Below are positions 1-20,808 of a stretch of DNA of 38,381 nt, in pieces (within the stretch, counting starts at the first letter, position 1; each line of letters starts with the position of its first letter). Source of the DNA: Acidobacteriaceae bacterium (GTDB lineage Bacteria > Acidobacteriota > Terriglobia > Terriglobales > Acidobacteriaceae). The stretch is taken from NCBI GenBank assembly GCA_003152695.1, contig PMAT01000115.1, forward strand, positions 1 through 38,381. Direction: 5' to 3'. The notes under the pieces were generated by a model that saw only the letters and a list, made by a program, of their open reading frames with translations, had not been told where the DNA came from and searched no databases. Made by a program: the position numbers and the translations under genes.

Positions 1-159
1 AGTTTCCCCGGACAGCAGTGACTGTTGAATATCGCCATATCACACGCAATCCACGCCGACGTGGACGTGCCGTAGCCGACCCCAGCTTGGCGGATATGTC
101 CTGCAGACTGGTAACTTTTCGGGCAGGGTGAACAATGACCCGTGCGAGACTTGACCCCG

Positions 160-11333: not shown

Positions 11334-12020
11334 TTAGGCCTTGAGCTTGCGGCGCAATATACCGGCGAGTCCGAGGATGCCAGAGCCGAACAGCAAAATG
11401 CTGCTGGGCTCAGGGGTAATTGGTTGAGGAGTACTGAGCGTGAAGGATTCCCCGCCCAACCCACAATCGCCAAAGTTGGTGCCGCTCTGCCGGAAGTTGC
11501 AAGTCGCAGGACCGCCAAGACCGCCGTTGGGTATGTCCCACGCTTCCGTCCCCGAGTTCTCGGCGTCGCTGGCATTGCTCAGGGAGAGCCAGTACTCGTT
11601 GCCGGCTGTCATGGGTGTTGGAAGGAAAAATCGAGTAGTAACGTCGTAAACGTCGTAACCGTCAGCATTCGTGAAGAGGAAGTGGCTGTTACGACTATCT
11701 AGCGCAACGGTTCCGACGCTCACATCGGTGCCGAACGCCGCGGTGCCGAGCTCATAGCCGATACTCGACGGCGTGAACCCGTTGGCTATCCACTCACCGA
11801 ACTCGAGGTCGATGGCCGTGCCGCGGCTGCTGGAAGCTTGCGCAACAAACCCGTTCGAAATGTCCTGGACATAGCCCACGAAATTCGGGTTGTTGGGGCC
11901 GGTGATAAAGAACGCATTGTCGTTGCCATCAATCGGGCCCTCGCTAAAGGTTGTTGTTTGTGCGAAGCCGGTCAAGGCAAGACATAGAATTGTGAGCAGT
12001 GAAAGGGATATAGTGCGCAT
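11334..12020 (-). CDS. PEP-CTERM sorting-domain secreted protein
   Basis: A 228-residue exported protein. It begins with a signal peptide (MRTISLSLLTILCLALTGFAQ) and ends with the PEP-CTERM tail: PEPSSILLFGSGILGLAGI, then the basic RRKLK. Such tails are recognised by an exosortase/archaeosortase that cleaves and anchors or releases the protein, commonly with exopolysaccharide. The mature part is rich in Asn, Gly, Ser and Thr and resembles other short PEP-CTERM proteins of unknown function. An AGGAGG lies nine bases before the ATG. No exosortase gene is in the window. Confidence 0.9.
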   Translation of the reverse strand: MRTISLSLLTILCLALTGFAQTTTFSEGPIDGNDNAFFITGPNNPNFVGYVQDISNGFVAQASSSRGTAIDLEFGEWIANGFTPSSIGYELGTAAFGTDVSVGTVALDSRNSHFLFTNADGYDVYDVTTRFFLPTPMTAGNEYWLSLSNASDAENSGTEAWDIPNGGLGGPATCNFRQSGTNFGDCGLGGESFTLSTPQPITPEPSSILLFGSGILGLAGILRRKLKA

Positions 12021-12473
12021 GGAAGGCGTACCTCCTGGGTCGGCTAGAGGCCATCCCCATTCTCATCCGCTCTCCAGTGCTTGCAACACAGAATTTGTAC
12101 GAAAGTGCATCGGGTTCCCGTATTGGGACTCACCCACAGAGACCCCCATGTCAACGTTATTTCTCACGCCGCTCTTTCGGCCCTGCGCTCGTGTGCTCCC
12201 AGAGAGCAACCAAGGTCCGCAACGTTCCGATCTGTGACGCCAGCGGCCATTGCCGGAGTCATGCAAAGTTACGATGACTCTTGATGAAGTTCCGATGGCT
12301 TGGCACAGAGCCTATTTATGAGTTGGCTTGTGGCACCTCCTCTGCTGCTGAGGAGCGTTTACTCGATGATTTCCACCGTCAACCACAGATTCCTGCTGCT
12401 TTGCGGAGAATCGGTGCAAATCTGCGTCTCAATTGATTTGCGCATCGCTGCGCCCGGCAGTAGATTCAAACTC
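12021..12473. other. Intergenic region between divergent genes
   Basis: It contains the Shine-Dalgarno and upstream region of the PEP-CTERM gene and the region before the DnaC-like gene. The DnaC frame remains open back to an ATG at 12300, but the residues there look non-coding (no family similarity, no ribosome binding site). No RNA gene or repeat is recognised. Confidence 0.45.
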
Positions 12474-13376
12474 GTGACCACCCCGACCGAGACATGCCCC
12501 ATCTGCGGCGGCACCGGATGGCAGACCATTGAACGCGGCAAAGAGCGCGAAGCGGTGCGCTGCGAGTGCCGCGTGCGCGACCGCGGCGGACGCCTGCTGG
12601 CCGCCGCACACATCCCGGCGCGCTACCAGCACTGCGAGCTCTCCAACTTCCAGTGCGATCCGCCAGGGCCGCCACAGGGTCGGACAATAATGGCGATGCC
12701 CGAGAAGGCTTTGGTGCATGGCCAGCCCGCCGACACATACCAGAAAAGCATCCGGGACGCACGCTTCTTCGCCGGGCGTTTCGTCGAAGAGTATCCCACC
12801 GACAAGACCGGCCTGCTGTTTGTGGGATCGGTCGGCGTCGGCAAGACACACTTGGCGGTCGGCATCATCAAGGACTTGATCCGCGAGAAGGGCATCCACT
12901 GCCTGTTCTGCGATTACCGCGAGCTGCTGAAGTCGATCCAGAATTCCTACAATCCATCGGTGCAGGCAACCGAGATGGAAATCCTGCGGCCGGTCTTCGA
13001 CGCCGAGGTGCTGGTGCTCGACGAACTGGGCGCGGTGCGCAGCACAGAGTGGGTCTTCGACACCGTCAACTACGTTCTCAACAGCCGCTACAACGACAAC
13101 AAGACCACCATCATCACCACCAACTTTCCCGACAAGCCGGAGCAGGACAAGGCGGAGGTTGACAACCTAAGCAGCCGCTCGGCCGCCGATCGCGCCGCCC
13201 GCCGCGAGACCCTGGGCGATCGTATCGGAGAGCGCATGCGTTCACGCCTGCACGAAATGTGCAAGAAGGTGGAGATCGAAGGGCTCGACTTTCGCGAGCA
13301 TTCCAAACAAGCGCAATTTCGCCGGCACGACGCGCCCTCGCGGGTGACGCTGCGCAGCACTAAGAGGAACGGCTAG
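12474..13376 (+). CDS. DnaC/IstB-like AAA+ ATPase with zinc finger (putative helicase loader)
   Basis: A 300-residue ATPase of the DnaC/DnaI/IstB group, which load replicative helicase or assist transposases. An N-terminal zinc finger (C8, C11, C30, C32; CPICGGTGW) precedes the AAA+ core: Walker A GSVGVGKT (118-125), Walker B VLVLDELGA (about 179-187), and sensor-1 TTIITTNF. A basic C-terminal end follows GERMRSRL, the usual box VII arginine region. No transposase is adjacent, so a chromosomal DnaC-like role is more likely than IstB. The start is uncertain: GTG at 12474 gives the family-like N-terminus; an ATG at 12300 would add 58 unlikely residues. Confidence 0.85.
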   Translation: MTTPTETCPICGGTGWQTIERGKEREAVRCECRVRDRGGRLLAAAHIPARYQHCELSNFQCDPPGPPQGRTIMAMPEKALVHGQPADTYQKSIRDARFFAGRFVEEYPTDKTGLLFVGSVGVGKTHLAVGIIKDLIREKGIHCLFCDYRELLKSIQNSYNPSVQATEMEILRPVFDAEVLVLDELGAVRSTEWVFDTVNYVLNSRYNDNKTTIITTNFPDKPEQDKAEVDNLSSRSAADRAARRETLGDRIGERMRSRLHEMCKKVEIEGLDFREHSKQAQFRRHDAPSRVTLRSTKRNG

Positions 13377-13460
13377 GCTGCTTGGACGGGCATTGCTTGC
13401 GTAAAACGCCTGATTTCGCCAGTTGGGAAAAGCAGCTCCGGAGAATTGCTGAAAGCTTCC

Positions 13461-14117
13461 TCAATAACGGCCCGGTCCCATTGGGACCGCTGCTTCGTTG
13501 GGGACAATGGTCACTTTAACCTCGTTCGAGTAGACCCACTCATGAGGCGGTTCGTCGTTCAGCCGCTTAGCCACAATGGAATAGACTCCGGGACGGCTCA
13601 TGTCGTAATAGCGATTGGGCGTCGCTCCGAAACTCACGGATTTGCCCGGTTCCAGTGTCTGTTGGTCATCAAACGGGGGGCCGTCCCACGCGCTATCGCC
13701 AGTTATCGTACGGGGGTCATCAAGCTCCGGATGTCCCCACACATGCCCGCGCCACTGGCCGTCCTTGTAGAAGTCCCGTTTTCGTTGCAGAAATTCCTCA
13801 GTTTCGGGCGCGAGATTGCCTTCTGCATCTCGGATTTCAAACTCAGTTGCTGGTCCCCACCTGAGGTTATAGTACGTAACTGCATGACCGGAAACATTCG
13901 TAATTAACAGGCTAACGTGCACATCCGTACCTGCGGGGATAATGTCACATCGAGGGTGCGTACCACAGGAAGGCACATCCGTACGCCCTGCAGTGATGTA
14001 CAGCGCATGTTCATAGAGCGCAGGTTCAAAAACCGCCCCTAGATACGACAAGTCCTGCGCAGAGGCGAGGTGGAAAACTCCAAGCATCACGAGAGGACCT
14101 AACACGCGCCTGAACAT
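13461..14117 (-). CDS. Uncharacterised secreted protein
   Basis: I do not recognise a family. The start is ATG at 14117, preceded by GAGGCGA at a good distance, giving a signal peptide MFRRVLGPLVMLGVFHLASA with cleavage before QDL. The mature part has short beta-strand-like segments (VHVSLLITNVSGHAVTYYNL, then GVYSIVAKRLN and SNEVKVTIV) as in immunoglobulin-like or beta-sandwich folds, and a pair of cysteines in PSCGTHPRC. It is probably periplasmic or surface exposed. It lies between the DnaC-like gene and the first UvrC-like 5' fragment, opposite in strand to both. Confidence 0.7.
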   Translation of the reverse strand: MFRRVLGPLVMLGVFHLASAQDLSYLGAVFEPALYEHALYITAGRTDVPSCGTHPRCDIIPAGTDVHVSLLITNVSGHAVTYYNLRWGPATEFEIRDAEGNLAPETEEFLQRKRDFYKDGQWRGHVWGHPELDDPRTITGDSAWDGPPFDDQQTLEPGKSVSFGATPNRYYDMSRPGVYSIVAKRLNDEPPHEWVYSNEVKVTIVPNEAAVPMGPGRY

Positions 14118-14249
14118 ATATGTCGCCTCGCCGCGTAAATTATGGCACAAGATGATTGGCGTAAAATCGCCATTACATAAGCGTCCAATCCTATTAGCTT
14201 AGCGAGAGGACACTGAAATCGCTATCCCTGATCCTTGGTTCGTTCTACC

Positions 14250-14344
14250 TGCAATACAATCTCCTCGTGCTATCGTATCGCATCGAGTTCATTCCCGACC
14301 GTGACGCTGAGCTGTTCGCCGCCGTGCCGGCGAGTGCAGCGGTG
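14250..14344 (+). pseudogene. UvrC-like gene 5' fragment, copy 1 (promoter plus 26 codons)
   Basis: This stretch repeats the promoter and first codons of the full-length gene at 16813. It has TGCAATACAAT, six bases, then GTG at 14267, and encodes RIEFIPDRDAELFAAVPASAAV, nearly identical to the full gene. Homology stops abruptly after the GCGGTG at 14344. The frame runs on into unrelated DNA and ends at 14503, giving a possible 78-residue chimeric peptide. It is a truncated duplication, not a functional UvrC-like gene. Confidence 0.85.
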
Positions 14345-14614
14345 AAACGTAGCCTCATGCGCCTCGATTGTCCTTATCCGTTCGATTGCGTCGCCTTTAG
14401 GCAAATCGCGCGTCCGCAAGTGGGAGATCTTCGCGTCTCGGTGTGGTTCGATGTCAATGTGAAGCGCCAGATTCTCCCATGGGCAGCCCCTTCGTACCAT
14501 TGACTTGCGCCCAATTCAGGAATATCCATGCTTCAGTAAGTCTGCGCCATGGGTGCAGGCTTTCAAACTCAAGGGGGTCGTCCGTGCTTGGGGCCAAGCA
14601 GCCGACCTTGATGT
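14345..14614. other. No complete gene; possible decayed coding remnant on the minus strand
   Basis: Two minus-strand frames (ending near 14454 and continuing below it in another frame) read as plausible protein when joined, for example EPHRDAKISHLRTRDLPKG, but they are in different frames and match no family I know. It may be a frameshifted remnant. Confidence 0.3.
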
Positions 14615-14617
14615 GTG

Positions 14618-15415
14618 ATGCACCTCCATACTCTTGACTATGTGTTGTGGCTGACATCTCCGTGCTTGCAAGTGGGCGTGGTGATTGTCATGCGCCGGCG
14701 CGGACTTGATCGGAACTTCCCCTTCTTCTTCACCTACACCATCCTGCAGGTGGTATCGGATGCATGGCTGGTCAGCGTGGAAAGGCTTTCTTATAGTGTT
14801 TACTTTTACTCCTACTGGATCGTGTCGGCGTTAAGCGTTCTGATTTCGTTGGCGCTAATCCACGAGTTGTTCAGAGCTGCCTTTCGGCAATTTGCGGCCC
14901 TGTGTGAGCTTGGCGAGATCGTTTTCCGCTGGGCCGTGATCGTGGGCTTACTCATGGCGGCCGGCGCCGTTCTGTTCTACCGTCATCTCCGGCTCCCGAG
15001 ACTTAGCGAGGGAATCCTGGTAGCGGATCGCAGTGCCCGCGCCATGCTTTGCGCACTAGTCATCCTGCTGTTGCTGGGCAGCCGTTACCTGCTCATCTCG
15101 CGGCGTGACCTGCTGTTCGGCATATCCTCGGGCTTCGCCCTCTTCAACCTGGCCAAGGTGGTCCTGGATAGCGTTGCTTTGCGGTGGCCGCCGCCCTACC
15201 TCGTGCTCGGACGGATCAATGGCGTGACCTACATTTCCGCCTGTGTCATTTGGCTGGCGTATGTAATTTTGGCCCAGCGCCCGGCTTTTGAGGCGGGAGC
15301 CTCCGACAAGTTACACCCGGCTTTGCGGGCTGATGACGCGCCACCGGGAGCCCTATTGGACGCGATCAATAATCGGGTGGAGCGGACGTTGCGACGCGCC
15401 TCCACTAACCCCTAG
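14618..15415 (+). CDS. Uncharacterised polytopic membrane protein
   Basis: About 265 residues with roughly seven hydrophobic segments, including VLWLTSPCLQVGVVIVM, FPFFFTYTILQVVSDAWLV, WIVSALSVLISLALIHEL, WAVIVGLLMAAGAVLFY, LCALVILLLLGSRYLL, and two near the C-terminus, then a hydrophilic tail. No catalytic motif or named family is recognised. Similar short membrane proteins of unknown function seem common in acidobacteria, by recollection only. GTG at 14615 and ATG at 14618 are both possible starts; no clear Shine-Dalgarno precedes them. It sits between UvrC-like fragments 1 and 2. Confidence 0.7.
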   Translation: MHLHTLDYVLWLTSPCLQVGVVIVMRRRGLDRNFPFFFTYTILQVVSDAWLVSVERLSYSVYFYSYWIVSALSVLISLALIHELFRAAFRQFAALCELGEIVFRWAVIVGLLMAAGAVLFYRHLRLPRLSEGILVADRSARAMLCALVILLLLGSRYLLISRRDLLFGISSGFALFNLAKVVLDSVALRWPPPYLVLGRINGVTYISACVIWLAYVILAQRPAFEAGASDKLHPALRADDAPPGALLDAINNRVERTLRRASTNP

Positions 15416-15442
15416 CCCTAACCGCTGTGTCTCTGCGGTAGA

Positions 15443-15572
15443 TAGAATGTCTTGGTGCAGCGCATCGAGTTCGTTCCCGACCGCGATTCCGAGCTGTTCG
15501 CCGCTGTGCCGGCGAGTGCGGCGGTGTTTCTGCTGCGTGGAGAGGACGAGGCCGGCGAGCCGTATGTCAGCC
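15443..15572 (+). pseudogene. UvrC-like gene 5' fragment, copy 2 (-10 box plus about 39 codons)
   Basis: TAGAAT (15443-15448), six bases, then GTG at 15455. The encoded QRIEFVPDRDSELFAAVPAS continues through FLLRGEDEAGEPYVS, collinear with the full-length gene up to the YVS of its GIY-YIG-like motif. At 15572/15573 homology ends exactly where the double-hairpin repeat begins; the frame stops at 15604. This copy is longer than copy 1 and truncated at a different point. Confidence 0.87.
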
Positions 15573-15693
15573 GGGTGTCTCACTCATTCCTGACGTTGGA
15601 ATGAGTGGGAATGAATTGTCGTACCAGCCGGGTCGCCTCCAATTGATCGATGGTCTCCCACACATTCGAAACCCGCGAATGTGTGGGGCACCC
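15573..15693. repeat. REPIN-like double hairpin
   Basis: Two hairpins in inverted arrangement. The first has a 12 bp stem CTCACTCATTCC / GGAATGAGTGGG with a 7-base loop (15579-15609). The second has a perfect 12 bp stem CCCACACATTCG / CGAATGTGTGGG with a 7-base loop (15657-15687). The outer ends GGGTGTCTCAC and GTGGGGCACCC are inverted relatives of each other. This is the layout of REP doublets (REPINs). It starts at the breakpoint of the truncated UvrC-like copy 2. Confidence 0.75.
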
Positions 15694-15915
15694 GGCTCGT
15701 GGGAGCGTAGCCGGTAGGTGCTCGGAATTGCCATGAGGAGCGAAGCGAGGCATCTGCTTTTCTTTCCGGTCGAAAAGAGAGTTTGATTCAATGGGTGTTA
15801 TTTTCTAGTGATCGCTCTTGCCAGACCGGTGGTGAAATAAGGTGTTACCGACAAGAATCGCTGCGACGATGCGGCCTGTTACCATCGAGCCTGCGGAAGT
15901 GCTGGGGACAAATAG
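15694..15915. other. Intergenic region, nothing recognised
   Basis: No gene, RNA or further repeat is seen between the REPIN-like unit and the secreted-protein gene. Confidence 0.4.
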
Positions 15916-16617
15916 ATGTCGATTCGTCTGGCAATTCCATTCACGGTTCTGTTGTTGTTTGCAACATCTGCTGCCGCTCAGTTGCAACAGGGACTGATCC
16001 GTGGCACGGTTCTTGCCCCTAATGGTAACGCGGTTGAAGATGCCCACGTATCAGCGGGGGTAATGAAAGGATCAAACATTTTGACAGAACAAAGTGCAGA
16101 CACCGATAGCCACGGGCAATTTGTCTTCTCGGGACTTGCCTTGGGGGAATACAGGCTGTCTGCTGAAAAGACTGAAGCGGGCTATCTCTCTACCGGAATC
16201 GACATACTCAACGGCCGCAAGCCAGCCCTCACGATTACTCTGACGGAAGAGATACCATCGTCAACTGCGCTCATTCACCTCGGGCCCAAAGCGGGCATAA
16301 TCACTGGGTGGGTGCTAGATTCATTGACCGGCAGCACGATTTCCGCAAAACTGAGCCTGAGTCCGGTGAACGGGAGCAGTTGGTCAATGACTGGTACCAA
16401 TCAGAAATTCAAGTTTCGAGTTCTGGTACCAGCCGACACCGCCTTTAGACTCGGCGCATGCGCAGACGGCTACAAGCCTTGGTTCTATGCCGATCCGTCC
16501 AGGCCCGGCAGCCCCGTTCCTGTGCAACTCGCGTCGGGTGCCGAGTTGAATGTTGTAATCAAGTTGGAGCCTGTGCCTGACAGAGCGAAGATGTCGTGTG
16601 CGGCTAGCACCTTCTAG
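15916..16617 (+). CDS. Secreted carboxypeptidase-regulatory-like domain protein
   Basis: A 233-residue exported protein. Residues 1-22 are a signal peptide (MSIRLAIPFTVLLLF, cleavage at AAAQ). Residues about 27-85 fit a carboxypeptidase D regulatory-like beta-sandwich: RGTVLAPNGNAVEDAHVSA, then DSHGQFVFSGLALGEYRLSA. A second beta-rich half begins IITGWVLDSLTGSTISAKLS and looks like a diverged repeat of the same fold. Such domains are frequent in acidobacterial surface and TonB-dependent proteins, and no enzyme activity is expected. It lies between UvrC-like copy 2 and the full-length gene, on the same strand. Confidence 0.75.
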   Translation: MSIRLAIPFTVLLLFATSAAAQLQQGLIRGTVLAPNGNAVEDAHVSAGVMKGSNILTEQSADTDSHGQFVFSGLALGEYRLSAEKTEAGYLSTGIDILNGRKPALTITLTEEIPSSTALIHLGPKAGIITGWVLDSLTGSTISAKLSLSPVNGSSWSMTGTNQKFKFRVLVPADTAFRLGACADGYKPWFYADPSRPGSPVPVQLASGAELNVVIKLEPVPDRAKMSCAASTF

Positions 16618-16800
16618 TAAAGCGACATCACATGGCGATAAATCGTGATTACAAAAGGGAAGACTCATACCAGCTAAGGATGCTACTTTCCGGCCGGCGG
16701 ACATAGAAATTGCTAAATCCCTAGTCGCTGGCCTCCCCCCTTATGAATAACTCCGGTCGTAATTCCCGGCTCCTAGTCTCCAGCCCCTTTCTCCGTGCAA

Positions 16801-16806
16801 TACAAT
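16801..16806 (+). promoter_or_regulatory. -10 box of the full-length UvrC-like gene; predicted leaderless start
   Basis: TACAAT ends six bases before the GTG start at 16813. Transcription from such a box would begin at or next to the start codon. The TGCAATACAAT context is conserved in copy 1 (14250-14260), which supports selection for or recent duplication of the promoter. No good -35 box is visible. Confidence 0.55.
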
Positions 16807-16812
16807 TCTTTC

Positions 16813-18048
16813 GTGCCCACGCAGCGCATCGAGTTCGTTCCTGATCACGACGCCGAATTATTCGCCGCTGCTCCGGCGAGCGCGGCGGTGTTTCTGCTGC
16901 GCGGGGAGGACGAGGCCGGCGAGCCGTACGTCAGCAAGACCTCGAACCTGCGCCGCCGCTTGCAACGCCTGCTGGGCCCCGTCGATGGACAAACCCGCAA
17001 GCTGAACCTGCGCGAGCGCGTGCGCTGGGTCGAGTGGACGGCCACCGGCTCCGACTTCGAAGCTTCGTTCCTGCTCTACCAAACCCTGCGCCGCGAATTT
17101 CCCAAGGCCTACGACAGGCGCCTGCGCCTGCGTTTCGCGCCGCTGGTCAAGCTGATCCTCGACAATCCTTACCCGCGGGCGACAGTCACCACGCGCATCT
17201 CTGGAATGAAAAGCGGCGGGGGCGTCAAGGGCAACGCGCAATATTTTGGGCCGTTCGCCACCCGCGTCGCCGCCGAGAAGTTTGCCAACGATGCGCTCGA
17301 CCTGTTCAAGATGCGCCGCTGCGTTGACGATCTCCATCCCGACCCGCAATTTCCCGGCTGCATTTATTCCGAGATGAAGATGTGCCTGGCGCCCTGCTTC
17401 AAGGGATGCACGGACGAGGAATACGCAGTCGAAGTGGGGCGCGTGCAGCAGTTTTTCGAAAGCGGCGGGCACTCGCTGGTGCGCGAGATCGAGCGGCAGC
17501 GCGACGACGCCTCCACCAATCTCGATTTCGAGGCCGCCGCCGCTTTGCACACCCGGCTGGAGAAGGTGAAGGCCGCGGCCGCGCAACTGCCCGACATTGT
17601 GCGCCGTCTCGACGAACTGAACGGCGTGATGGTGCAGCCGTCGGCGGACCGCGAATCGGTGGCGCTGTTCAAGATTGCCGGCGGGCGCATCTGCGCTCCC
17701 GTCGCCCTCAACGTCGGTCAGCCAACGGGCACCGCGCAACTCGTCTCGAAGCCGCAGTCCCAATCCATGGAGTCGCGTATCACCGAGGCGCTGGCCGAGG
17801 TGGAAGCCCCCAAGCTGCGCGGGGCGCTGGAGTGGATGGAGCACCTCGCGCTGCTGAAGCGCTGGTACTACCGCACCATCAAGGCCGGCGAATTGTTTCT
17901 GGCCGATGACGGCGAGCTGCCGATGCGGCGCGTGGTGCGTGGCGTGTCGCGCGTCTTTCGCGGCGAGAAGCCCGCCGGCGACCTCAGCGAGACCGCCGGA
18001 GACTACTGGAAGTTCCGCGCTCGCGAAGCCGGGCTGCGGGAAAGCTAG
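16813..18048 (+). CDS. UvrC-like protein lacking the C-terminal nuclease domain
   Basis: 411 residues from GTG at 16813 (an in-frame GTG at 16795 overlaps the -10 box). Domain order is that of UvrC: a GIY-YIG-like N-terminus (VFLLRG, then YVSKTSNLRRRL), a linker with GPFATRVAAEKF, a cysteine cluster (MRRCVDD, PGCIY, KMCLAPCFKGC), and a UVR coiled-coil (STNLDFEAAAALHTRLEKV). UvrC makes the 3' cut with GIY-YIG and the 5' cut with a C-terminal RNase H-like domain; the latter is missing here. In the GIY-YIG motif the usual GVY is AVF and YVGK is YVSK, so 3' nuclease activity is doubtful. It may be a Cho/UvrC relative with a regulatory or UvrB-binding role. Two truncated copies of its 5' end lie upstream. 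Confidence 0.83.
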   Translation: MPTQRIEFVPDHDAELFAAAPASAAVFLLRGEDEAGEPYVSKTSNLRRRLQRLLGPVDGQTRKLNLRERVRWVEWTATGSDFEASFLLYQTLRREFPKAYDRRLRLRFAPLVKLILDNPYPRATVTTRISGMKSGGGVKGNAQYFGPFATRVAAEKFANDALDLFKMRRCVDDLHPDPQFPGCIYSEMKMCLAPCFKGCTDEEYAVEVGRVQQFFESGGHSLVREIERQRDDASTNLDFEAAAALHTRLEKVKAAAAQLPDIVRRLDELNGVMVQPSADRESVALFKIAGGRICAPVALNVGQPTGTAQLVSKPQSQSMESRITEALAEVEAPKLRGALEWMEHLALLKRWYYRTIKAGELFLADDGELPMRRVVRGVSRVFRGEKPAGDLSETAGDYWKFRAREAGLRES

Positions 18049-18157
18049 GCACATTACCCATACACATCTGAATTGTCCTGCTGAGCGAGCCCGCCGCGGC
18101 GGGCGACCTCGTCGCTCAGGATGACACTTCAAGAAATTATGTCCGCTTATGAATAAT
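18049..18157. repeat. Partial foldback repeat between convergent genes
   Basis: GTCCTGCTGAGCGAG, the perfect palindrome CCCGCCGCGGCGGG, then CTCGTCGCTCAGGATGAC (18074-18125 overall), followed by ATGAATAAT at 18149-18157. The 18-base right arm and the ATGAATAAT end are identical to those of the complete element at 25019-25213, so this is a shorter or truncated member of the same family. Confidence 0.6.
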
Positions 18158-18170
18158 CTTCCCCTAGGCG

Positions 18171-19103
18171 CTACTTTCCCGCGTTGGCTATTTCGAAGTC
18201 GGCCATCGACTTCACCGCGTCGTAGGGAATATTGGAACTGAGGCCCAGGATCCTGCGTCCGTTGAGGAAGAACGTTGGCGTGCTGGTGATGTTGAGTTTT
18301 TCGCCGAAGGCGACGGAATCCGCCACCCGCTTCGCCGTCTCCGGCTTGGCGACGCAAGCCGCAATCGCATCCGGATCGCCGCCCGCATCCTTCACATACC
18401 CCTTCAGCATCTGGTCAACGTTCTGCTCATTCACTTCGGCTTGGTGCTCGTAAACCGCAGCGATGAACTTCCACACGGCGTCGTTATTCGTCTGCCCCAG
18501 GCATTCTACATACTTGGCGCCAGGCAGCGCCCATTTGTGAATCCCCTCCAGCGGGAAGTTCTGAAACACCAGCCGGGCCTTGGGCTCTTCTTGCATCAGC
18601 CTGGTAATGTTCGGCTGCGCGGCCTTGCACGCCGGGCACTGCAGATCGCCGAACTCCACGATGGTGATGACTGCATCCCTCGGCCCCTGCGAGGGACCGT
18701 TGGCGCCCTTCAGCAGCTCGCGGTCCACGGCAAACGGATCGGCGCCGAACGGCACCAGGTCGCCAGTGAAGGCGTGCTTCTGATCGGCGGTCACGTAGAT
18801 GCGCGTCACCTGCTGACCCTGCGGCGTGTTGAAGACGACCGCGGCTTCGGAAAGACCGGCCGCCTCCGACGGTTTAATGTCCACCACTTTCCAGGTGAGG
18901 TCCTGGTTCCAGCCGAACATGTGCTTGAGGAACGCGTTGAATGTGGCCTCGCTGGGAAGCGACCCCTGCGAGTTGGCGGAGGACACGCCAGGAGCGGTCT
19001 TGGCGGGAGGCTTCAACGTGGTCGCGGGCGGTTGCTGCGCGTTGGCGCAGAGGCTGGCCAAGGCCAGAGCGGCGGTCATCAATACGACAGTGCAACGGTT
19101 CAT
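18171..19103 (-). CDS. DsbA-like thioredoxin-fold protein (exported)
   Basis: A 310-residue protein with a signal peptide (MNRCTVVLMTAALALAS, cleavage near CANAQ) and a C-terminal thioredoxin-fold domain. The active site is CPAC (C156, C159) in VEFGDLQCPACKAAQP, and the cis-proline is in the TSTPTFFLNGRRILG segment, as in DsbA/BdbD-type disulfide oxidoreductases. Residues 50-120 form an extra N-terminal region found in DsbA-family proteins of this type. It is probably periplasmic and may oxidise or isomerise disulfides. An AAGGAAGGA sits just before the ATG. nadE lies upstream, 64 bp away, with no functional link evident. Confidence 0.88.
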   Translation of the reverse strand: MNRCTVVLMTAALALASLCANAQQPPATTLKPPAKTAPGVSSANSQGSLPSEATFNAFLKHMFGWNQDLTWKVVDIKPSEAAGLSEAAVVFNTPQGQQVTRIYVTADQKHAFTGDLVPFGADPFAVDRELLKGANGPSQGPRDAVITIVEFGDLQCPACKAAQPNITRLMQEEPKARLVFQNFPLEGIHKWALPGAKYVECLGQTNNDAVWKFIAAVYEHQAEVNEQNVDQMLKGYVKDAGGDPDAIAACVAKPETAKRVADSVAFGEKLNITSTPTFFLNGRRILGLSSNIPYDAVKSMADFEIANAGK

Positions 19104-19167
19104 GGTTCCTTCCTTGTCTAAAACAAATGTCTAAAGCAAATGTGCAAATCCAATGTGCAAGGGTAGG

Positions 19168-20808
19168 TTACATCTCCGCCTTGGCGGCGATGGGATAGCG
19201 GCGCCCAAAGCCGAATGCTTTTTCGGAAATCTTCAGGCCGGGAGCGGCTTGCTGGCGCTTGTATTCGCTCTTGTCCACCATGCGAGCCACCTTGCGCACC
19301 AGCTCTGGAGCGTAGCCGCGCTGCGCTGCAATTGCCTCTGGAGACAGGTTGTCTTCCACGTAGTCTTCCAGGATGGCATCGAGAACTTCGTAGGGCGGCA
19401 GCGAGTCGCTGTCCTTCTGGTCAGGCCGCAATTCCGCGGATGGAGGCTTTTCTATGGTGGACGCGGGAATCACCGGCGAACGCGAATTCACGTAGCGTGC
19501 CAGGCGGTAGACCAGCGTTTTGGGCACGTCGGAGATGACCGCCAGTCCGCCGCACATGTCTCCATAGAGAGTGCAGTAGCCCACTCCAATCTCCGACTTA
19601 TTTCCGGTGGTCAGCAGCAGCGCGCCGAACTTGTTGGACACCGCCATCAGCAACGAGCCGCGAATACGCGCCTGAATATTTTCTTCGGTCACATCCTCCT
19701 GACGGCCAGCGAAGGTGGGCTTCAGCGCTTTCTGGTAGCACTCGAAGATGTCAACAATCGGCACCAGGTCAAACGAGATACCGAGGTTGCGGGCCAAGGC
19801 CGCAGAATCATCAATGCTGCCGCGCGAAGAATACGGCCCGGGCATGCCTACCGCGATAACGTTCTCGGGCCCCAGCGCGTCCACCGCGATGCAGGCGGTG
19901 ATCGCCGAATCGATACCGCCGCTCAGTCCCAGCACGACCTGGTGGAAGCCGCACTTGTGCACGTAATCGCGAGTGCCCAACACCAGCGCCGAATAAACGC
20001 TCGCCTCCAGTCCTTCCTCAGCCGGGTGCAGGTCGCCGGTAAGCGACTCGCTGTCAAAGCAGACGAAGTCCTCCTCGAACGACTTGGCTCGCGCGATTAC
20101 CCGCCCATCGGGACCCAGGGCGAAACTCGATCCATCAAACACCAGGCTGTCGTTTCCGCCCACCTGGTTCACCAGCACAACCGGAATGCGGTAGTGCCGG
20201 GCAATCGTAGCCAGCATGTCAAGCCGCAGTTCGCGTTTGTGAAGATAAAACGGAGAGGCCGAAATGTTCAGCAGGATCTGTCCACCGGCGCCGATCAAGT
20301 CTTGCACGGGATCGACTCCGTACAGTTGGCGGTCCCAGAAGTTTTTGTCGTTCCAGGCGTCCTCGCAAACCGTGAGCGCCAACTGCTTCCCGTCAAGGGC
20401 CAGCAGTTGCTGGCGATCGGCGGGCGCGAAGTTGCGCATCTCGTCAAACACGTCGTAGCTGGGCAGCAGGCGTTTCGATTGGATGGCGGCGATCTTTCCG
20501 TCGCGCAGCAGCGCCGCCGAATTCATCACCGACTTGCCGGTAGTGGAATTGGCCGGAGTCACCAGACCGCAAATCACGGCAATGCCCTGAGTCGCTACGG
20601 CGATCGCTTCCGCGGCTTGCCGGTTGCGCTCCACAAACCACGGGCGCTCCACCAGATCGCGCGGGGGATAGCCGCAAACACTCAGCTCGGGAAAGAGAAT
20701 GAGATCGGCGCCGGCGCTTTTCGCCCGTCGCGCGTACTCGATGATTTTTGCCGAATTGCCCGCGAAATCGCCGACGGTGGTGTTGATCTGGCCAAGTACA
20801 ATCCTCAC
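19168..20808 (-). CDS. nadE: Glutamine-dependent NAD+ synthetase
   Basis: Catalyses the last step of NAD synthesis, amidating nicotinic acid adenine dinucleotide with ammonia made from glutamine. An N-terminal nitrilase-type amidase carries the Glu-Lys-Cys triad (E41 in FPELSVCGYPP, K112 in SKRLLP, C148 in TVCEDAW). A C-terminal ATP-pyrophosphatase domain has the P-loop SGGIDS at about 296-301. The length of 546 residues is right for the two-domain form. The GTG at 20808 gives the family start (M)RIVLGQINTTVGDF; a TTG at 20844 is in frame but lies inside the promoter. TACACT ends six bases before this GTG, so a leaderless mRNA is predicted. Confidence 0.95.
   Translation of the reverse strand: MRIVLGQINTTVGDFAGNSAKIIEYARRAKSAGADLILFPELSVCGYPPRDLVERPWFVERNRQAAEAIAVATQGIAVICGLVTPANSTTGKSVMNSAALLRDGKIAAIQSKRLLPSYDVFDEMRNFAPADRQQLLALDGKQLALTVCEDAWNDKNFWDRQLYGVDPVQDLIGAGGQILLNISASPFYLHKRELRLDMLATIARHYRIPVVLVNQVGGNDSLVFDGSSFALGPDGRVIARAKSFEEDFVCFDSESLTGDLHPAEEGLEASVYSALVLGTRDYVHKCGFHQVVLGLSGGIDSAITACIAVDALGPENVIAVGMPGPYSSRGSIDDSAALARNLGISFDLVPIVDIFECYQKALKPTFAGRQEDVTEENIQARIRGSLLMAVSNKFGALLLTTGNKSEIGVGYCTLYGDMCGGLAVISDVPKTLVYRLARYVNSRSPVIPASTIEKPPSAELRPDQKDSDSLPPYEVLDAILEDYVEDNLSPEAIAAQRGYAPELVRKVARMVDKSEYKRQQAAPGLKISEKAFGFGRRYPIAAKAEM

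Follow-up and report, generated by a model that had tools for sequence, protein, structure and literature searches.

Stacked copies of a uvrC-like gene start beside single-gene cargo in an Acidobacteriaceae genome

The uvrC-like gene and its three starts

The window analysed here is a stretch of 38,381 bp (G000:C128:1-38381) from an Acidobacteriaceae bacterium, in which the promoter and first codons of a uvrC-like gene occur three times within 2.7 kb, twice as truncated copies and once at the head of the full-length gene. The source genome, G000, is a draft of 4.5 Mb in 141 contigs (completeness 99.38%, contamination 0.93%), and its closest named relatives are Acidobacteriaceae metagenome assemblies, chiefly of the palsa and bog series. 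Together with eight congeners (G001 to G008) it forms a genus comparison set of nine genomes, and wider protein searches covered 61 genomes.

The full-length gene (16813-18048, plus strand) codes for a product resembling the N-terminal half of UvrC or the Cho type; TIGR00194 matches with E 4.8e-27, which is under that model's cut-off, the Cho model matches weakly (E 5.2e-6), and in Pfam the UVR motif alone passes (E 0.001), with no GIY-YIG nuclease domain found. Seven of the eight congeners have an orthologue at 80-97% identity and the eighth, G004 (71% complete), has a weak match at the level of UvrC only; matches are present in 60 of the 61 genomes, but many of these are true UvrC and not orthologues of this gene. 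The program-made list of open reading frames places the start at 16795, but the GTG at 16813 agrees with the orthologues and is preferred because the spacing of an upstream TANAAT in them fits it. We retrieved 80 loci for the ortholog comparison, several from the same congeners, of which 77 others are testable and 71 include at least 1 kb of upstream sequence. TANAAT is located 4-9 nucleotides (nt) ahead of a start codon in 62 of the 77, and exactly 6 nt ahead in 46, compared with 13/1540 in a shuffled control. The corresponding element of the full gene is at 16801-16815, and the spacing hints at a conserved leaderless promoter, with transcription from at or near the GTG.

Searched against the genome, the 5' end of the uvrC-like gene has matches at two further places, at 15457-15571 (88% over 115 nt, E 1.7e-35) and at 14243-14344 (75% over 102 nt, E 1.1e-13), both on the plus strand. 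The next-best place in the 4.5 Mb gives just E 0.008, and there is no comparable match elsewhere. All three copies retain TANAAT, six bases and a GTG, with the GTGs at 14267, 15455, and 16813. The leftmost (copy 1, 14243-14344) consists of a displaced promoter and the first 26 codons, and breaks off at 14344, equivalent to position 16890 and codon 26 of the full gene. It runs in frame into 52 other codons (14345-14503, plus strand), giving a 78-codon chimera; this tail, to go by its translation, is probably a foreign gene's 3' end, and a search of 60 other genomes gives it no convincing match (best E 0.05). Copy 2 (15457-15571) is a displaced start with its promoter just upstream, lacks the six bases following the GTG, as do G005 and G007, and breaks at 15571 after 39 codons of its own, equivalent to position 16935 and codon 41. 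In gene coordinates the two breaks are 45 bp apart and share no common core. Copy 3 (16795-16908, plus strand) is the promoter and start in current use. These alignments and the translation bear out the sequence-only reading of the window, which had described a recurring promoter, GTG, and first codons, truncation at different points, preservation of promoter and start codon throughout, and a 78-codon chimeric frame.

The break of copy 2 falls where a dispersed palindromic repeat of ~127 bp starts (15570-15696), an inverted repeat that recurs at G000:C51 (95%), G002:C366 (94%), and other sites in the genus. This repeat is REPIN-like, and a second dispersed repeat of ~45 bp lies at 15725-15769; both have many copies in the genus. 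A translated search found no copies of the own gene start upstream of the gene in the 77 other testable orthologous loci, and in ten of them DNA matches of the own start extend over 16-37 nt only. The repeated start is particular to G000 among the loci tested.

Lineage affinities of the three starts

The three starts resemble different strains. Taken together with the flank upstream of it, copy 1 has 96.8% identity to G002 (14156-14344) and 95.6% to G008 (14163-14344), two genomes in which the matching sequence stands at the head of the intact gene; over the 78 coding bases that precede the first break it matches G002 at 75 and G008 at 74 positions. The same 78 bases of copy 3 match G001 best (69/78), and are distant from G002 (58/78), G008 (61/78), G006 (59/78), and G003 (60/78), as well as from copy 1 itself (59/78). 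The coding part of copy 2 is closest to G008 (67/72), and with its upstream part it is 85% identical to G006 (15402-15571) and 85% identical to G003 (15422-15571).

The full gene changes its affinity within the first few dozen codons. In the 55 bases past the second break it matches G002 at 54, G008 at 53, G006 and G007 at 50 each, and G001 at 40 positions; the copy 3 region is 75-78% identical to G002, G008, and G006, whereas the gene body is 93% identical (Fisher p ~1e-6). A split of identities to the left and right of 16908 gives p values of 1.6e-6 (G002), 3.2e-6 (G008), 7.2e-6 (G006), and 2.4e-3 (G003), and is not significant for G001, G007, and G005. The best change points are 16908, 16873, and 16882, close to the equivalent of the copy 1 break at 16890. 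As a control, all 21 pairs among seven congeners were treated in the same way, with a lowest p of 0.02 and a largest drop of 8 points, compared with left-side drops of 15-18 points for the window against G002, G008, and G006. The gene is a mosaic.

Judged by these identities, the locus carries three kinds of upstream region, and the start now used, copy 3, is out of place relative to the gene body and is of a foreign type; copy 1, and not copy 3, would probably be the native start. Copy 1 ends beside the identity switch. Most simply, the native gene would have been cut at this point, and everything in between, including the current start, would be an import. Plain tandem duplication was rejected, since copy 3 resembles neither copy 1 nor G002 and G008.

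Cargo genes, dispersed repeats and similar loci

The left border of the region is an IstB/DnaC-like ATPase gene (12300-13376, plus strand; Pfam IstB_IS21, E 2.1e-11), the 3' half of which has 93% DNA identity to G002, G006, and G008. The gap between this gene and the uvrC-like gene contains no cargo gene in G006 (~60 bp) and G003 (~280 bp), and in G005, where the contig begins here, ~55 bp separates the two matches. The cargo at this site is exchangeable, with a 388-amino acid (aa) gene in G008, a 367-aa gene on the other strand in G002, and a 432-aa gene in G007; in G001 no DnaC-like gene match is present within the retrieved stretch. On gene content the site is a cargo hot spot, in agreement with one of the explanations offered by the sequence-only reading.

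Three cargo genes lie here in the window. Cargo 1 (13461-14150, minus strand) codes for a 229-aa protein, and cargo 2 (14615-15415, plus strand) for a 266-aa protein; no Pfam or NCBIfam family was found for either. The closest relatives of the cargo 2 protein in the 60 other genomes are at most 45% identical, and it has no match in viral contigs. Cargo 3 (15916-16617, plus strand) codes for a 233-aa protein with a carboxypeptidase-regulatory-like domain (Pfam CarboxypepD_reg, E 2.6e-15), with a best other match of 27% identity. There are no Rfam matches over 12000-19500, and a tandem-repeat scan gave three short arrays, all away from the copies.

Cargo 1 differs from the others in its borders. 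The block 13408-14181 is 98% identical to G006:C107:303-1076, so that cargo 1 occupies two different loci in two congeners, and at both loci congeners bear other genes beside the same right-hand half-site (also G002:C120 and G008:C24). The half-sites, which are all that flanks cargo 1, belong to a dispersed palindrome of ~90 nt with two unlike halves around a 10-21-nt spacer, and the palindrome or its half-sites border many single accessory genes (window 1-55, 13385-13424, and 14150-14190; G000:C51, C67, and C110; G002:C41; G008:C1; G001:C168). Its 20-base end pattern has 71 matches in eight of the nine genus genomes (none for a reversed control), and a model built from ten palindrome sites finds matches in 19 of 61 relatives, including all nine in the genus. 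The sites stand in same-strand rows, seven on the plus strand of G008:C1 and five on that of G001:C168, which suggest integron attC sites. The canonical attC core is GTTRRRY, which by eye only is not clearly present in the palindrome sites. No integron integrase exceeds the TIGR02249 cut-off in the nine genus genomes, all of which are drafts, and weaker matches occur in six of them. Integron insertion was rejected as the cause of the gene-start copies for lack of an integrase over the cut-off, and transposon-like or cassette ends were likewise rejected because the ends found bound cargo 1; by eye, cargo 2 has no cassette-like ends and cargo 3 has one degenerate end at ~16632-16660. Far to the left is a tRNA-Ser (1714-1806), and the DNA just before it (1100-1806 with the tRNA) resembles, by eye, the end of a tyrosine recombinase gene, a possible old integration site.

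Similar arrangements are seen at other genes. Direct repeats were listed in 437 kb of G000, made up of the window and 20 further stretches, and in 400 kb of G006, and were then judged by eye; the same filter returned six pairs in G000, three of them the window's own, and five in G006. The best further case of the same anatomy is a DinB-like gene in G006 (L326:2708-4171, G006:C91), where the promoter and 18 codons have been left behind, followed by a bestrophin-like cargo gene and a substitute start; the insertion is common to G006 and G008, G000 and G002 have a single start without cargo, and a relative of the cargo (84%) is at another place in G000. A helix-turn-helix gene in G000 (L275:10212-12629, G000:C100) is a probable case, with its 3' end repeated after a 220-aa cargo and a cargo-free arrangement in G008. 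Two others, each judged from one genome, probably have the same anatomy: a DUF488 gene in G000 (L269:4849-5730, G000:C89), with the upstream region and five codons left behind and a DUF4440 cargo, and a DAHP-synthase gene in G006 (L319:16940-18564, G006:C103), with its 3' part repeated around cargo. The vicinity of a porin gene in G006 (L330:4082-7758, G006:C91), where upstream pieces are repeated, is ambiguous. Repeat lengths are alike in all cases (70-115 nt), and in the 5' cases the breaks are within 5-41 codons of the start. Leftover gene ends appear at about two other loci per 400 kb in the two sampled genomes, a rough rate given that the samples are small and that the window itself was picked for its repeats. 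In a control sample of 400 kb of G025, of the same family, there are two low-copy repeat pairs, one beside Rhs-like or repeat sequence and one unresolved, and no clear displaced gene end.

Origin of the stacked starts

The reading that we favour, with reasonable rather than high confidence, is that two foreign one-gene blocks were stacked serially at the start of the uvrC-like gene by one-sided homologous recombination with DNA of related strains, the other end being joined illegitimately. In each event the incoming DNA would comprise a cargo gene and, after it, the same gene's promoter and first codons from a related strain; homologous recombination would take place within the resident gene's first few dozen codons, and the far end would be joined at nearly the same point without evident homology to it. 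The resident promoter and first codons would be left as dead fragments (copies 1 and 2) and the incoming start would become the new one (copy 3), with the gene remaining intact. Most economically, a break close to the start of the gene would have been repaired in the manner of homology-facilitated illegitimate recombination (HFIR), with the gene-side end invading a relative's DNA and the promoter-side end closed by end joining. Such a break with its two modes of repair would yield near-absent deletion and start-proximal breaks without coincidence. The break, the donors, and the enzymes are presumed, and the order of events is read from position only.

Several observations are consistent with sequential displacement. 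Two displaced gene ends are stacked beside one intact gene, and the displaced pieces resemble alleles of other strains, copy 1 those of G002 and G008 and the upstream part of copy 2 those of G006 and G003. One junction is of the homologous HFIR type, with the switch from foreign to native sequence inside the gene at 16873-16908, backed by the pairwise control; at the other, homology ends abruptly at 14344 and 15571. Conventional non-homologous end joining is reported to be enriched in Acidobacteria (PMC7719229). Of the explanations proposed in the sequence-only reading, serial insertion is supported and the 5'-end hot spot stands, and plain serial duplication in place does not, as the three starts resemble different lineages and the one in use is the odd one. 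The fragments look like different alleles of a single orthologous gene that have their promoter element in common, and not like pieces of different paralogues.

Other points weigh against this reading. Most congener pairs are also slightly lower on the left, so part of the drop in identity is ordinary, and the mosaic test is based on ~96 bases. The polarity may be the opposite, with copy 1 imported from a strain like G002 or G008, although copy 3 would be out of place even so. No donor with this block order was found in searches with the 266-, 52-, and 233-aa products in 61 genomes and with the hot-spot DNA in the nine genus genomes. Hardly any sequence seems to have been lost, as copy 1 ends at the equivalent of 16890 and native-like sequence resumes at ~16873-16908, and HFIR products usually delete about as much as is inserted (PMC3240628). 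A literature search on the pattern as a whole returned nothing, which proves little.

Among the alternatives, a circle that bore the gene start and entered by a single crossover is not cleanly separable from one-sided insertion. An insertion within one genome seems to us unlikely; here the fill-in of staggered breaks spaced ~100 nt from each other, with capture of a cargo fragment, would duplicate the start on both sides of the cargo as a long target-site duplication. This model suits the uvrC-like gene less well than it does the likeness in repeat length and the DinB-like case, in which both G006 starts have bases in common that are different in G000 and G002: a duplicate of the native start that is still in use is expected to be at least as close to its relatives, so the divergence of copy 3 from copy 1, G002, and G008 (59, 58, and 61 of 78), when copy 1 matches the latter two at 75 and 74, counts against it. 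An assembly artefact, with contigs of several strains misjoined at the shared gene start or a dispersed repeat, is decidedly improbable; the genome is a draft of 141 contigs and the dispersed repeat at the copy 2 break is a likely spot for a misjoin, but no known repeat lies at the junction of copy 1, two independent genomes have the DinB-like arrangement, and completeness and contamination are at the values given above.

SXT-type elements carry a substitute 5' end of their target gene prfC, and a site-specific integrating module of this sort, inserted twice, would account for the precise-looking replacement of a start with preservation of the gene, twice at one gene. We consider this very improbable, as the two breaks lack a common core at their 45-bp separation, Pfam and NCBIfam reveal no integrase among the cargo proteins, and other target genes break at other positions, some of them at the 3' end. 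Adaptive promoter capture, with displaced promoters kept because they drive cargo genes, is the least likely of all, for although TANAAT, six bases, and GTG persist in all copies and both cargo 2 and cargo 3 are downstream in the same orientation, these two genes begin 270 and 344 nt past the breaks, behind stop codons, and a recent remnant would also explain the kept start and promoter of copy 1.

The favoured one-sided insertion has likenesses in several described systems. One homologous and one non-homologous junction are typical of HFIR in Streptococcus pneumoniae, Acinetobacter baylyi, and Pseudomonas stutzeri, where the latter usually has 3-10 bp of microhomology and the process depends on RecA and on linear DNA taken up by transformation; unlike the products described in PMC3240628, which mostly carry a similar-sized deletion, the uvrC-like locus has almost none, and it receives a substitute gene start, apparently twice running. 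In the type VI secretion system effector-immunity arrays of Vibrio cholerae, serial insertion by a proposed HFIR stacks displaced remnants, namely orphan immunity genes and shifted effector 3' ends, beside an active gene (PMC5361080); here it is instead a repair-like gene whose promoter and 5' end are displaced, and the cargo consists of unrelated single genes. In Rhs C-terminal displacement a constant part is likewise kept and displaced ends pile up by the gene (PMC2935791 as cited in PMC5361080), in contrast to the replacement of a 5' end here, which leaves the protein product essentially unchanged. Cargo 1, between half-sites of an attC-like palindrome that forms same-strand rows elsewhere in the genus, is like an integron cassette (Acidobacteria attC model, PMC8352920), but, unlike in integrons, no integrase is over the cut-off in the nine genomes, and the repeated gene starts are not explained.

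The history of toxin arrays has already been traced from displaced gene ends. The same logic appears here at the promoter end of an ordinary gene, the uvrC-like one, where it seems to have operated twice running, and at other genes of the genus. We propose tentatively, and with considerable doubt, that bacteria of the Terriglobales type acquire single genes recurrently and genome-wide while sparing the target gene, with cargo at the first few dozen (or last) codons supplying a replacement for the gene end. Breaks would be repaired by homologous invasion of DNA from a relative in combination with end joining, and the leftover ends would be a record in which each is an oriented trace of one acquisition. 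If this is general, such remnants would allow single-gene acquisitions in soil bacteria to be counted and ordered with no need for the donor, and they would indicate that genes are gained in nature, with the target gene still functional, through coupled homologous and end-joining repair.

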